NCBI GenBank assembly: GCA_016794145.1
Contig: JAEUKP010000014.1
Span: 62,001 to 126,000, forward strand
DNA from: Alphaproteobacteria bacterium
GTDB lineage: Bacteria > Pseudomonadota > Alphaproteobacteria > Micavibrionales > Micavibrionaceae
Direction of reading: 5' to 3'
DNA length: 64,000 nucleotides
Under the pieces are notes generated by a model that saw only the letters and a list, made by a program, of their open reading frames with translations, searched no databases and had not been told where the DNA came from. The position numbers were made by a program, and so were the translations under genes. This document shows positions 6,041 to 39,807 of this stretch, piece by piece (the stretch's first letter is position 1; every line of letters begins with the position of its first letter).

Positions 6041-6118
6041 CAACCACGAAGCATCTGTGTTCATCTGTGGTTTCTAAGATTTTTTTAACTACAGAGAACA
6101 CAGAGGACACAGAGTTTT
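6041..6118 (+). repeat. Family C repeat (CACAGAG words), forward copy
   Basis: It starts AACCACGAAG, runs through ATCTGTGTTCATCTGTGGTTT and ends with tandem CACAGAG-type words. Positions 6088-6114 are an exact 27-base reverse complement of 6556-6582, and the flanks of both copies also align (about 70 bases overall). It resembles the ends of the GxxExxY unit at 30639-31106. Confidence 0.75.
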
Positions 6119-6130
6119 TTTCTCTCGATC

Positions 6131-6234
6131 GTCATTACCCGCGCCAAGGGATAAAAGCGGGTAATCCAGTCTTTTTCTGGATCCCCCCCTCACCCCACCC
6201 TCTCCCCACCCTCTCCCCACGGGGGAGAGGGAAA
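6131..6234. repeat. Family B hairpin joined to family A-like words
   Basis: GTCATT-ACCCGC-GCCAAGGGATAAAA-GCGGGT-AATCC, followed by CCAG/CTGG and then CCCTCACCC, two CCCTCTCCCC words and GGGGGAGAGGG. The 14-base loop GCCAAGGGATAAAA is identical to that at 38908-38983, although the stems differ and remain paired. Confidence 0.75.
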
Positions 6235-6254
6235 CGCAAAGGGCCCAAAGGACA

Positions 6255-6375
6255 CCACGGACGCTCACGGACGCTAAGTTTTTTTGTATTTCACACGCTC
6301 TCTGTTCTCTGTGGTGAAAAAACTTTTTTGCGTTTCAAGGAAAAGGGCTTCACGCAGAGACCGCAGAGGGTTTTT
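6255..6375. repeat. Degenerate family C words
   Basis: Dispersed words include CACCACGGACGCTCACGGACGCTAAG (split 6255-6280), CTCTCTGTTCTCTGTGGTG (6299-6317) and TTCACGCAGAGACCGCAGAGG (6351-6371). The last closely matches the left end of the GxxExxY unit (CCTCACGCAGAGAACGC at 30639). No gene is visible here. Confidence 0.55.
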
Positions 6376-6386
6376 ACTTCCCGCAC

Positions 6387-6537
6387 GTCATCCCCTGACT
6401 GCGCAGCAGTTTAAGGGGATCCGGAATCTTGTTCCTATTCTTTAGATGATGTGTGCGGCTTTGCCGCAACCATTCACTGGATCCCCCGCACGCGTTCCGT
6501 TTTGCTGTCGCAAAATCTCCACTTGGCGGAGGATGAC
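6387..6537. repeat. Family B bipartite element
   Basis: It opens GTCATCCCCT-loop-AAGGGGATCC with an inner ACTGC-GCA-GCAGT hairpin and closes CTGGATCCCCC...GGAGGATGAC. The two halves face each other as in the 3272 element, with about 60 unrelated bases between them. Confidence 0.65.
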
Positions 6538-6553
6538 GATGAAGAGATAAAAC

Positions 6554-6622
6554 AGCTCTGTGTCCTCTGTGTTCTCTGTAGTAAGAAAACTTTAAAACCA
6601 CAGATACACATAGATACACACC
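6554..6622 (-). repeat. Family C repeat, reverse copy
   Basis: 6556-6582 is an exact 27-base inverted copy of 6088-6114. The following AAACCACAGATACACATAGAT aligns with the flank of the forward copy. The pair delimits about 580 bp of repeats with no gene, like an emptied mobile unit. Confidence 0.7.
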
Positions 6623-29378: not shown

Positions 29379-30326
29379 TTAAGCCGCAACAATCGCCGAC
29401 TGCGCTGCAGGCTTCACGTCCTGAGTGATCACAGCAGGAGACACCACAACCGGATCTGCGAGCATATCAATATACAGATCCACCCATTCCCAATGATCCG
29501 GATGGGCAAATAATTCGTGCAAGACGCGGTTATTCATATTATGACCAGGCTTGACCGCCTCATAATGTCCCAAAATCTGGCCTCCGGCGATATAAATATC
29601 CCCGACAGCATCCAGAACCTTGTGACGGGCGAATTCGTCCGCATGGCGCAAGCCTTCCGGATTCAGGATGGCTTTATCATCCAACACCACCGCGTTCTCC
29701 AACGACCCACCCAAAGCCAAACCCATGGCCCGCAACGCTTTGACCTCATGCGCAAACCCGAATGTCCGCGCATCCGATATTTTGGCTTCGAAATCGCCGT
29801 TCATCAATTCGATCGCAAAGGCTTGTTTGCCGATGGAAGGATGAGAAAAGTCAATTGCCACTTGAAAACGGGACCCGACCCCCGGCTTTAAAACCACGGA
29901 TTTATCCCCGTCAACGACAGAAATATCTTTCAAAATCCGGATAGCCCGACGGGGAGCGGTCTGGGTTTTTAACCCGACATCACGGATAGCCTGTACAAAA
30001 GGTTCCGAACTGCCGTCCATAATCGGGACTTCGGGCCCATCGAGCTCGATCACCGCGTTATCCACGCCGCAAGCCGACAACGCCGCCATTAAATGTTCAA
30101 TTGTGCCAACCGAAACACCGGCTTTATTGGCAACCACCGTGCACAAACGGGTATCCACCACCGAATCCCATCGCGCAGGGATCAGATTGTCGCGGTCTGC
30201 GACATCGACACGGCAAAAGGTCAGTCCGGCGCCCACATCAGCGGGCAACAGGCGCAACACCGTCTCGGCTCCGGAATGGAGCCCGACACCAGACAATTCA
30301 ACTGGACGAGATACGGTGTGTTGCAT
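29379..30326 (-). CDS. lpxC: UDP-3-O-acyl-N-acetylglucosamine deacetylase
   Basis: Zn-dependent committed step of lipid A synthesis, 315 residues. Zinc ligands: the histidine of GTIEHLMAALSACGVDN and the H/D pair of ADEFARHKVLDAVGDIYIAG; the catalytic histidine is in GHNMNNRVLHELF near a later loop. The start gives MQHTVSRPVELSGVGLHSGA, the family N-terminus, with AAAGGGG as ribosome site. The C-terminus has an alanine-rich tail beyond the core. It shows that the organism makes lipid A. ftsZ, the usual upstream neighbour, is not present; carB and a mobile unit lie there instead. Confidence 0.97.
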   Translation of the reverse strand: MQHTVSRPVELSGVGLHSGAETVLRLLPADVGAGLTFCRVDVADRDNLIPARWDSVVDTRLCTVVANKAGVSVGTIEHLMAALSACGVDNAVIELDGPEVPIMDGSSEPFVQAIRDVGLKTQTAPRRAIRILKDISVVDGDKSVVLKPGVGSRFQVAIDFSHPSIGKQAFAIELMNGDFEAKISDARTFGFAHEVKALRAMGLALGGSLENAVVLDDKAILNPEGLRHADEFARHKVLDAVGDIYIAGGQILGHYEAVKPGHNMNNRVLHELFAHPDHWEWVDLYIDMLADPVVVSPAVITQDVKPAAQSAIVAA

Positions 30327-30630
30327 AGAAAGCCTAACCCCTTTGAGTGTTATTTTCTTTCCCTAAAATAGGTTTTTTAACCTTTCCTGACAATTCACTC
30401 TCCGTTGCGAATTGTTACAGGAATGATTTTCTGCCGGAAAATCCAAAAATCAGGCATAAAAAGACTTGCCAATCCGGCCATATATCACTATTGAAGTGGC
30501 TTCAGTGCCAACAAAAAAACCAAACGGACACCCATGCCCCTTTGCACTGAAAACCGAGCTTTACTAACCGTCATTGCAAGCATCAGCGAAGCAATTAAAA
30601 GTGATTTCATTTCAATTTATGCGCATTGTT
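30327..30630. other. Intergenic region between lpxC and the GxxExxY unit
   Basis: Holds the lpxC leader (minus strand). I see no coding frame with a credible start and no strong terminator; scattered A+T-rich sequence only. Confidence 0.5.
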
Positions 30631-30638
30631 TTTTAAAA

Positions 30639-31106
30639 CCTCACGCAGAGAACGCAAAGGTTTCGCAGAGTTCACGGAGCAATAAACAATGACCTCCATA
30701 CAACAAAATGAATTAACTTCACAAATTATTGGCATTGCCATCAAAATTCATAAACAAATCGGTTCAGGACTTCTTGAATCTGCCTATCATCATTGCATGA
30801 AATTAGAACTTACAAAGGCGAAAATCCCCTTCCAATCAGAAATAATTTTTCCAGTCATTTATGATGGGGAAGAAATTGAATCAGGATATCGTATTGACTT
30901 ATTAATTGATAAAAAACTTGTTGTTGAACTAAAAAGTGTTGAAAATATTACTGAAATTCATAAGGCACAACTTCTGACATACTTGCGCATGGGGCAATTC
31001 CCGCTTGGACTTATTTTAAACTTTAAAGAACCACTTCTCAAAAACGGTATATACCGCTTTATAAACTCTGCGAACTCTGCGGAGCCTCAGCGAACTCTGC
31101 GTGAGG
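30639..31106 (+). mobile_element. GxxExxY gene unit bounded by 12-bp inverted repeats
   Basis: CCTCACGCAGAG (30639-30650) and its exact reverse complement CTCTGCGTGAGG (31095-31106) bound a single gene. Similarity extends a few bases both ways (TTTTA...CCTCACGCAGAG...CGC). More CGCAGAG / CTCTGCG words lie just inside each end (30664-30670, 31066-31082). The right repeat encodes the last residues of the protein. No clear target duplication is seen, and mobility is inferred from the end structure and from related words at 6041-6622. Confidence 0.6.
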
Positions 31107-31117
31107 ATAAAAAATGA
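30689..31117 (+). CDS. GxxExxY protein (PD-(D/E)XK nuclease fold)
   Basis: 142 residues. The family signature is GSGLLESAYHHCMKLEL (G-LL-E-SA-Y, about residue 26-33). The nuclease-like core is RIDLLIDKKLVVELKSVENI, giving D-x(n)-E-x-K, followed by KAQLLTYLRMGQFPLGLILN. Related families are counted among PD-(D/E)XK proteins; their biological role is not established. The final residues (AEPQRTLREDKK) are encoded by the repeat that closes the unit. Base composition is far more A+T-rich than carB and lpxC on either side. The compact gene bounded by inverted repeats suggests a nuclease that mobilises or maintains its own repeat family. Confidence 0.88.
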   Translation: MTSIQQNELTSQIIGIAIKIHKQIGSGLLESAYHHCMKLELTKAKIPFQSEIIFPVIYDGEEIESGYRIDLLIDKKLVVELKSVENITEIHKAQLLTYLRMGQFPLGLILNFKEPLLKNGIYRFINSANSAEPQRTLREDKK

Positions 31118-31184
31118 AAAACACTACAAAAATTGCCTACAGTCTTTCTCTTATAAACAAACTTAAACCACTGGAAAAAATGCC

Positions 31185-34100
31185 ATGCCAAAACGTACCG
31201 ACATAAAATCCATCCTGATCATCGGCGCAGGGCCCATCATTATCGGGCAAGCGTGTGAATTTGACTATTCCGGCACACAGGCCTGCAAAGCCCTGAAAGA
31301 AGAAGGATACCGCGTCATTCTGGTCAACTCGAATCCGGCGACCATTATGACCGACCCGTCTTTGGCCGATGCCACCTATGTGGAACCCATTACCCCTGCC
31401 ATCGTGGCCAAGATCATCGAACGGGAACGTCCGGATGCCCTGCTGCCGACCATGGGCGGACAAACGGCACTCAACACCGCGTTGGCCCTATCGAAAGACG
31501 GCACCTTGAAAAAATTCAATGTCGAACTGATCGGCGCCAACGAAGACGCCATCGAAAAAGCCGAAGATCGCCAGAAATTCCGTGACATCATGGATTCCAT
31601 CGGACTGGAAAGCCCGAAAAGCGAAGTGGTCAATACCCTGTCGCATGCGATGGATGCGCTGCCAAAAATCGGATTGCCGGCCATTATTCGTCCATCCTTT
31701 ACCTTGGGCGGCACAGGGGGCGGGATCGCCTATAACCGCGACGAATACGAAAAAATTGTCCGCGAAGGTCTGGACGCCTCCCCGATTCATGAAGTTCTGG
31801 TCGAAGAATCGGTTCTGGGATGGAAAGAATACGAAATGGAAGTTGTCCGCGACAAAAACGACAACTGCATCATCATCTGTTCCATTGAAAACATTGACCC
31901 GATGGGCGTGCATACGGGGGATTCGATCACCGTGGCCCCTGCCCTGACCCTCACCGATAAAGAATACCAAATCATGCGCAATGCCTCCTTGGCCGTATTG
32001 CGCGCGATTGGCGTGGAAACGGGGGGATCCAACGTGCAATTCGGTGTCAATCCTGCCGATGGCCGGATGGTTGTCATTGAAATGAACCCCCGCGTCTCCC
32101 GCTCGTCGGCTCTGGCCTCGAAAGCAACAGGTTTCCCGATTGCCAAAGTCGCGGCCAAATTGGCGGTTGGCTATACGCTGGATGAATTGGGCAATGACAT
32201 TACTGGCGGCCGGACTCCGGCTTCGTTCGAACCCACCATTGATTACGTTGTCACCAAAATCCCGCGCTTTGCCTTTGAAAAATTCCGTGGCACCGACAAC
32301 AACTTGTCCACCGCCATGAAATCCGTGGGTGAAGCCATGGCAATCGGCCGCAGTTTCGAAGAATCGATGCAGAAAGCCCTGCGCTCGTTGGAAAAAGGCC
32401 TGACCGGCTTTGATGATCAACCGATTGCCGGTTCAGGCGATACACCCGATATGGATCAGGTGCGCGCCGCGATTTCCAAACCGACCCCACAACGTATCCT
32501 GAACATTGCCCAAGCCTTGCGCTATGGCATGAGTCTCGATGATGTGCATGCGATTACCAAATACGATCCATGGTTCCTCGGCCGGATCAAACACATTGTG
32601 GACACCGAAGCCGCGATTCAATCCGGCGGATTGCCGACATCGGGCGAAGGTTGGATCAAATTGAAATCCATGGGCTTTTCCGATGCGCGCCTTGCCAAAT
32701 TGGTGGGGGTCAAAGAAGAATCCGTCACCAAAGCCCGCCAGAAATACAACATTCATCCGGTTTACAAACGGGTGGATTCCTGCGCGGCAGAAATCCCGTC
32801 CGACACACCGTATATGTACTCGACCTATGAAGGGGACGGGGTGAATCCTCCTCATTGCGAAATGGCCCCGACCGACCGCAAAAAAGTCATCATTCTGGGC
32901 GGCGGGCCAAACCGCATCGGCCAAGGGATTGAATTTGACTATTGCTGTGTGCATGCGGCCTATGCCCTTAAAGAGGCGGGTTACGAAACCATCATGGTGA
33001 ACTGCAATCCGGAAACCGTCTCGACCGATTACGACACGTCGGATCGCCTGTATTTCGAACCACTGACCGCCGAAGACGTGATCGAACTGATCCACGCCGA
33101 AGCCAGAAATGGCGAAGTCATGGGCGCGATTGTCCAGCTGGGGGGCCAAACTCCCTTGATGCTGACCAAGAAATTAATGTCCGCCGGCATTAAAATTCTG
33201 GGTACTGATCCGGATGCGATTGATATTGCCGAAGACCGTGAACGTTTCCAGAAATTGTTAAAGCAATTGAAACTGCGCCAACCGGAAAACGCCTTGGCCA
33301 AATCCGTGAAAGAGGCGATTGAAAAAGCCGAAGATCTGGGCTTCCCGATTGTGATCCGCCCGTCCTATGTTTTGGGCGGACAAGGGATGGAAATCGTGCA
33401 AACCATGGAAGAATTGCAACGTTACATCTCGACCGCCGTCAAAGTCTCGGGCGACAGCCCTGTCCTTCTGGATCGCTATCTCTCGGGCGCGATCGAAGTC
33501 GATGTGGACGTCCTGTCCGATGGCGACGATGTCTTTGTCACCGGTGTGATGGAACATATCGAAGAAGCGGGCATCCACTCGGGCGACAGTGCCTGCGTTC
33601 TGCCACCGCACTCGCTTCCTTATAAAGCCGTCCGCGACATCGAACGTCAGGCCGAACAATTGGCGCGCGCGTTAAAAGTCCGTGGATTGATGAACGTGCA
33701 ATTCGCCGTCAAATACAATCCCGATAATGGCGAACATGAAATCTATATTATCGAGGTCAACCCACGCGCGTCCCGCACCGTGCCCTTTGTGGCCAAAGCC
33801 ACAGGCACACAGGTCGCAAAAATTGCAGCGCGTGTCATGGCCGGAGAGAAATTATCCTTCTTCCGGAACCAAGGCCTGTTGCGCGGCATGACACCCGACC
33901 ATATCGCGGTCAAGGCTCCGGTCTTCCCGTTCTCGCGTTTCCCCGGGGTTGACCCGATCTTGGGCCCTGAAATGAAATCCACGGGCGAAGTCATCGGGCT
34001 GGACCGCGAAATCGGGCATGCGTTTGCCAAATCGCAAATGGGCGCAGGCATAAAACTCCCCTCGTCCGGCAATGTCTTCCTGTCGGTCAAGGACACTGAC

Positions 34101-34457
34101 AAAGAAGGTCTGGTCCCTCTGGCAAAAGAATTGAGCCAAATGGGCTTTACGCTGGTCGCAACAGGCGGGACATGCAGCTTCCTGAAAAATGCCGGATTGC
34201 CGGTCACGCGGATCAACAAAGTGATGGAAGGCCAACCGCATATCGCGGATGCGCTGATTAACGGAGACATCCATTTGATTATCAACACAACCAAAGGGTC
34301 ACAAACCGTGGTGGATGCGTTCTCGATCCGGCGTTTGGCGTTGATGAACAAGATCCCGTATTACACCCTGCTGACCTCGGCCAAGGCCGCCGTTATGGCG
34401 ATCCGCGCACTCAAAGCCAAAGATCTGACCGTGGAACCTTTGCAGGCGTATTTCTAA
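31185..34457 (+). CDS. carB: Carbamoyl-phosphate synthase large subunit
   Basis: Makes carbamoyl phosphate for arginine and pyrimidines from bicarbonate, ammonia (from CarA) and 2 ATP. It is 1090 residues, full length. It contains two homologous carboxyphosphate and carbamate halves, each with a pre-ATP-grasp site ([20 protein letters not shown] near the start, [20 protein letters not shown] near residue 566), ATP-grasp motifs ([30 protein letters not shown]) and [18 protein letters not shown] / [18 protein letters not shown], then a C-terminal MGS-like allosteric domain (about 950-1090, [15 protein letters not shown]). carA is not adjacent. Third positions favour G and C, unlike the following genes. 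Confidence 0.98.
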
Positions 34458-39557: not shown

Positions 39558-39762
39558 TATGTTTAGCTCCATAGACAGTAAGATTTACGCAAGATAAAGA
39601 ATAGTAACACCGCCATTTAGCCATTTAAAGGTAAATATCATCTAAATATGTTTTCCAGAATAAAATCTGGGGTGACTAGAGCAATCCGAGCCCCCCGCTC
39701 TAAGTGTCTATTAAGTCACGAAAGAAACTTCTTCACACAAAAAACTTCGAGACCTTCATGCA
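39558..39762. other. Upstream region of the MarR-type gene
   Basis: No coding frame supported. It contains the regulator's leader and an imperfect inverted repeat GTGACTAGAGC (39672-39682) with GCTCTAAGT and GTCAC further on (39697-39719). Confidence 0.4.
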
Positions 39763-39807
39763 CTTCGTGGTTGAAAAAGAATAGATTCCTTGATCACGTC
39801 GGAGGAT
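39763..39807 (-). repeat. Composite family C / family B remnant
   Basis: 39763-39782 is an exact 20-base reverse copy of 6032-6051. The next bases, GATTCC...GGAGGAT, look like a decayed family B hairpin, in the same C-B order as at 6004-6051. CTCTGTGGT recurs at 39828-39836. Confidence 0.6.

Follow-up and report, generated by a model that had tools for sequence, protein, structure and literature searches.

The window, meaning the whole stretch of 64,000 nucleotides analysed here, contains a small gene of the GxxExxY family which lies between lpxC and carB and is enclosed by two inverted arms. The features of this locus, together with gene-less copies of related words found elsewhere in the window, are as follows.

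6041..6622, no strand assigned: cluster of gene-less arms and hairpins with the words CACGAAG, CACAGAT, CACAGAG and CGCAGAG (word-pattern search)
29379..30326, minus strand: lpxC, left neighbour (PF03331, E 4.5e-103)
30535..31184, no strand assigned: approximate extent of the DNA that is missing from the gene-less lpxC-carB junction in the congener G001 (window compared with L034/L102)
30631..30679, plus strand: left arm, with a T/A-rich outer end, the outer box CCTCAC and then CACGCAGAG / ACGCAAAG / CGCAGAG / CACGGAG (inverted-repeat detection, alignment score)
30689..31117, plus strand: GxxExxY gene, PD-(D/E)XK nuclease fold, 142 aa (profiles, invariant columns, AlphaFold2 model)
31066..31114, minus strand: right arm, an inverted copy of the left arm which overlaps the 3' end of the gene (inverted-repeat detection, sequence)
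31185..34457, plus strand: carB, right neighbour, co-directional with the gene of the element (CPSase_L domains, Pfam)
39713..39778, minus strand: one copy of a gene-less CACGAAG hairpin (similarity search of the own genome)

The initial annotation described the gene as packaged between exact 12-bp inverted repeats. These are present as CCTCACGCAGAG (30639-30650) and CTCTGCGTGAGG (31095-31106), the sole exact matches within the 64 kb, and they form the outer tips of longer inverted arms of 49 nt each, which are 78% complementary. Each arm is a series of kindred words at a spacing of about 9 bp, and the extra CGCAGAG words that had been noted inside both ends belong to this series. Local alignment of the upstream flank with the reverse-complemented downstream flank gives a score of 61, as compared to a maximum of 36 for base-shuffled flanks. 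The proposal that the right repeat codes for the C-terminal residues also holds, in that the open reading frame runs through the right arm, which encodes the last residues, ...EPQRTLREDKK; both neighbouring genes are likewise backed by Pfam. Relative to G001 the locus carries some 650 bp of extra DNA, the exact ends of which are unsure and which exceeds the arm-bounded unit. Within this DNA, immediately to the left of the element, lies another repeat-like sequence, CGTCATTGCAAGCATCAGCGAAGCAAT (30569-30595).

The encoded protein is matched by TIGR04256 (E 2e-40, 137.8 bits against a curated cut-off of 35) and by PF13366 (E 1.8e-39, 135.2 bits against a curated cut-off of 22). Searches with Pfam and NCBIfam return only these PDDEXK_3 / GxxExxY assignments, with no DDE, HUH, serine or tyrosine transposase domain. 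The invariant columns of the family alignment are D70, E80, K82 (as E80-x-K82), Q94 and Y98 (as Q94xxxY98), giving a D..ExK..QxxxY signature which we take to be a RecB/Cas4-type active site. By sequence, then, the putative catalytic motif is intact. The AlphaFold2 model of the protein is confident (pLDDT 89.9), its best structural match in the PDB is the Cas4 protein SSO0001, at a modest level (E 1.5e-3, TM-score 0.44-0.53), and the nearest viral models are small PD-(D/E)XK nucleases from haloarchaeal and crenarchaeal viruses; a sequence search of the PDB gave no significant match, with a weak hint of T7 endonuclease I at E 0.88. With both profiles above their cut-offs, and with the signature and fold in place, the PD-(D/E)XK-like core that had been noted for this family is borne out. 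The likeness to SSO0001 lies in the D..ExK..QxxxY motif, whereas GxxExxY proteins, at about 120 aa, are without the cysteine set for an iron-sulphur cluster and have no CRISPR tie. Moreover, differences between close protein pairs number 173/62/430 by codon position and thus fall mainly at third positions, which argues that the protein is under selection. Two degenerate PDDEXK_3 paralogs (L096 and L098), located in the gap preceding sdhA, have lost the ExK motif and are without arms; these are perhaps domesticated remnants.

The arms are not peculiar to this locus. Four GxxExxY loci are present in the own genome, which comprises 1.89 Mb in 24 contigs, and three of them carry inverted arms: besides the window element, the element at pdhA|pdhB (L001) and a truncated one at atpH|atpA (L004) have arms with a different word, CCACGAAG, and at atpD|atpC (L002) only the right arm remains. 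The gene occurs in 23 of 58 relatives, with 1-5 copies in each. Over 39 loci of the genome and its relatives, the mean score is 44.7 when each upstream flank is paired with the reverse complement of its own downstream flank, 26.4 for cross-locus pairing and 22.4 (max 36) for shuffled flanks, and plain arms are seen at about 31 of the 39. Similarly, for 80 loci from about 25 phyla own-flank pairing scores 55.2 and cross-pairing 30.3, with arms at most of the 78 loci tested; this set came from a genome scan that used nine closer family members and is therefore biased to the GPGLLES subfamily. The groups covered include Bacteroidota, Planctomycetota, Acidobacteriota, Verrucomicrobiota, Chloroflexota, Omnitrophota, cyanobacteria and one Methanothrix MAG, among others. 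Counted over 116 loci, forward word pairs reach 8.3/kb just upstream of the gene and reverse pairs 7.7/kb just downstream, against a background of 0.15-0.29/kb at 350-1200 bp from the gene; a correctly oriented pair is found on at least one side in 95 loci and on both sides in 71. When the flanks of homologues are aligned, therefore, inverted repeats prove to be common to GxxExxY genes in some 25 phyla.

The identity of the word varies. Those seen include CACAGAG, CACGAAG, CACTAAG, CACCAAG, CACAAAG, CGCAAAG, CACGAAT, CACAGAT, CCGGAG and CGCAACG, and the consensus of the outer end is a T-rich run and (A)CCAC, followed by the words. Both arms of one element use the same word, with a 5-mer cosine of 0.65 within and 0.16 between elements; the arms in this comparison were picked by alignment, which favours the within-element match, and in the alignment tests cross-paired flanks were treated alike. 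Among proteins of less than 60% identity, arm similarity is predicted by protein similarity (r 0.20, 4/2000 permutations), whereas DNA 250-350 bp away shows no such correlation (r 0.01); below 50% identity the correlation of protein and arm is weak (155/2000 permutations). Indeed, the class of word is coupled to the protein subfamily. Where GHGF replaces GPGL in the protein, the words are of the ..AT type in 36 of 38 cases, at a spacing of 10 in 23 of 23, and all non-GHGF proteins have ..AG words (373/373) with spacings mostly of 8-10. Seven GHGF-like loci from a different family of the same phylum, found later, likewise have ..AT words.

In terms of placement, the elements typically lie after the stop codon of one gene and before the start region of the next, and where both neighbours are co-directional the gene shares their direction in 75 of 82 cases. 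The gaps occupied are those of central operons, namely carA|carbonic anhydrase|carB, atpH|atpA, atpG|atpD, atpD|atpC, sdhB|sdhA, pdhA|pdhB and glyQ|glyS. Empty sites are present at several of these positions in congeners: lpxC|carB, atpH|atpA and pdhA|pdhB are empty in G001, glyQ|glyS in G002-G004 and G010, and sdhB|sdhA in G005. Some of them may be losses. No target-site duplication is seen on comparing occupied with empty sites, where the intergenic DNA is too diverged for the ends to be placed, and no recent jump is seen among the compared loci. The protein tree, in which many forks are weakly supported, shows changes of position: two congeners have sdhB|sdhA elements that are nested (99/93) in a clade whose other members, from other genera, are at atpG|atpD. 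The closest relative of the window element in the tree is its sister (100/99), the carA|carbonic anhydrase element of G002, both having the unusual outer box CCTCAC. Most elements near carA, carbonic anhydrase and carB form one clade and yet occupy different gaps there, as if moving locally or favouring that region.

Words of the same kind also occur without the gene. The cluster at 6041-6622, where similar gene-less words had been noted earlier, accounts for five of the 11 word pairs in the window and the element itself for four; block-shuffled windows give 3.3 (max 9). In the own genome word pairs number 23, where a reversed control pattern gives 3. It also contains about ten copies of the CACGAAG hairpin, which is some 65-84 bp long, has a DNA fold z-score of -4.0 and is mostly 92-100% identical between copies, these being embedded in longer mosaics that include other repeats as well. 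Two gene-less CACGAAG arms with some 130 bp between them (L196, G000:C13:26892-27085) precede the lipoyl-domain gene that comes next downstream of the L001 element, and they are perhaps a decayed second element. As to the suggestion that repeat number might track the presence of the gene, the 58 genomes have on average 10.1 word copies with the gene and 2.5 without it once the genes' own arms are subtracted (p 0.002), a difference that is weaker within the family (p 0.09), both figures being uncorrected for relatedness; a control pattern shows no trend with gene presence over the same 58 genomes. The gene-less words are those of the resident gene in G000, G030 and partly G011, but not in G013, G024 and G025, and G001 has 27 word pairs and no GxxExxY gene.

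Since the words change together with the protein, what lies in these gaps of housekeeping operons looks like an undescribed selfish DNA unit; the open-licence literature searched contains no description of GxxExxY arms or repeats. In our estimation the best account, with a probability of about 55%, is a family of minimal selfish or semi-domesticated nuclease elements which work in a REP-RAYT-like manner. Each unit would consist of one PD-(D/E)XK nuclease gene with an inverted array of 8-10-bp words on either side. The nuclease, expressed by read-through of the host operon, would recognise the words of its own element in the left and the right arm, probably with several subunits set at a roughly helical spacing, and would join or cut the arms, such that the unit and the gene-less hairpins with the same word could copy into or out of T/A-rich operon gaps. 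In other words, we infer that binding and cutting of the words by the GxxExxY protein is what moves the unit. Set against this reading are the failure to see a target-site duplication or a recent jump, the chance that some empty sites are losses, word-rich but gene-less genomes of the G001 type, the mismatch of words with the resident gene in some genomes, the arms of an unrelated gene family (see below) and a near-absence from plasmids and phages.

The initial annotation compared gene and repeats with REP elements and their RAYT transposases. The likeness in working stands, as do the shared flank repeats and the empty sites; membership does not, because the GxxExxY enzyme is not an HUH protein. 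As in REP/REPIN-RAYT (TnpA-REP) systems, a small chromosomal gene has inverted short repeats and many gene-less hairpins with the same word, protein lineages are tied to word types, the units are intergenic and rare on plasmids, and gene-less copies tend to be more numerous where the gene is present, for GxxExxY as a trend uncorrected for relatedness (for REPIN/RAYT see PMC8049555). In contrast to these systems, the protein is a PD-(D/E)XK nuclease and not a Y1 HUH protein, each arm repeats an 8-10-bp word in tandem where REP has a single palindrome, and a genome may have several divergent copies of the unit, which lie for the most part within operons and occur across about 25 phyla. Insertion sequences and MITEs share the plan of a single gene bounded by terminal inverted repeats and accompanied by derivatives without the gene, but the present unit has no known transposase domain, shows no target duplication at its diverged sites and ends in a co-varying word array and not in a fixed sequence. 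Membership in the REP-RAYT, insertion sequence, 23S intervening sequence or homing classes is not claimed, since a defining feature of each is either absent or not in evidence.

PD-(D/E)XK folds are known among homing enzymes, and a homing mechanism, in which the nuclease cuts the centre of a gene-less palindromic hairpin and the gene is inserted when the break is repaired from an occupied copy, the two halves of the hairpin becoming its arms, would fit the abundance of gene-less hairpins with the same word. It would also fit the atpG|atpD gap, which holds a gene-less arm array in G009 and a full element in its congener G006. However, the gene-less hairpin family of the own genome is absent from the gene's positions in relatives, and the empty glyQ|glyS, sdhB|sdhA and atpH|atpA sites have no hairpin, such that homing appears unlikely. 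Next in plausibility, and distinctly improbable, is a module that serves the host. Its protein would bind the scattered word arrays, with operon regulation, the processing of ends or chromosome organisation as its function, and would be retained on that account. Selection on the protein, its recurrence in central operons and its rarity on mobile replicons (relatives of the query on 8 of 72,556 plasmids and 0 of 50,697 phages) would be in keeping with such a role, but the distribution is patchy, the operon occupied differs between species and the empty sites entail no apparent loss of the operon.

A further explanation, which we consider similarly improbable, is a passenger at the RNA level, whose arms would pair in the operon mRNA so that RNase III excises the loop, the unit persisting on account of the little harm it does. 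The model is the 23S rRNA intervening sequence with an S23/IVP gene, which has complementary ends and is cut by RNase III (PMC4990558). Such sequences resemble the GxxExxY unit in being of about 400-500 bp, with one small ORF between inverted ends, and in their sporadic occurrence, and GxxExxY units are, in accordance with a passenger, inserted sense-wise within transcribed operons. On the other hand, arm mismatches in 85 armed elements comprise 95 of the G.U type and 104 of the A.C type (p 0.57). With no excess of G.U, the matching of the arms seems to be kept at the DNA level. On this indirect test RNA pairing is rejected as the reason for arm matching, some RNA role being possible, and the arms differ from those of 23S intervening sequences in showing no sign of upkeep by RNA pairing. 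The element has no match in Rfam, and an RNA passenger leaves the tandem words, the coupling of word and protein and the gene-less copies unexplained. Last, the reading that chance or base composition makes the arms can be dismissed, for although lone words do arise by chance, the enrichment beside the gene is about 25-50-fold with opposite orientation on the two sides, and own arms pair far above cross-paired ones.

S23/IVP genes of the four-helix-bundle type (PF05635) that lie outside rRNA also sit between inverted arms, with 23 of 30 loci of the own phylum scoring at least 36; the cross-pair control is high here (35) because some loci share identical tandem words. Their arms are also built of periodic words (L206-L210, L265-L294), mostly of 7-8 bp, such as TAGGCAG, GGCTTAA, GTGAGTA, GGGATGA and GGCGAAT. 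GxxExxY differs from S23/IVP in its unrelated fold, in its operon gaps (lpxC-carB here) in place of rRNA and in its longer word period. When the compared loci were scanned for further genes within arms of this kind, no third family emerged convincingly. Since this arm design serves two unrelated proteins, an explanation by a single protein is incomplete, and movement may be due to something that the GxxExxY and S23/IVP units have in common, perhaps a host process. A broader proposal, which we advance tentatively and at somewhat less than even odds, is a mobile superfamily spanning phyla, whose sole enzyme would be the nuclease of about 120 aa reading a variable periodic arm word, with S23/IVP as a second lineage of the same architecture and an unrelated protein. 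Within such a superfamily, protein and word would co-evolve like lock and key, because the nuclease would recognise the variable repeated word on both arms.

The selfish nuclease element would give a widespread and uncharacterised family of bacterial genes, GxxExxY, a concrete and testable role, and its natural series of protein-word pairs may serve for reading the recognition code of a nuclease. It also suggests a reason why GxxExxY and S23/IVP genes are found within operons to which they bear no relation. CRISPR-cas loci are among these, and there the genes have been recorded either as potential partners or as mistaken neighbours (PMC3936711; PMC8934634).
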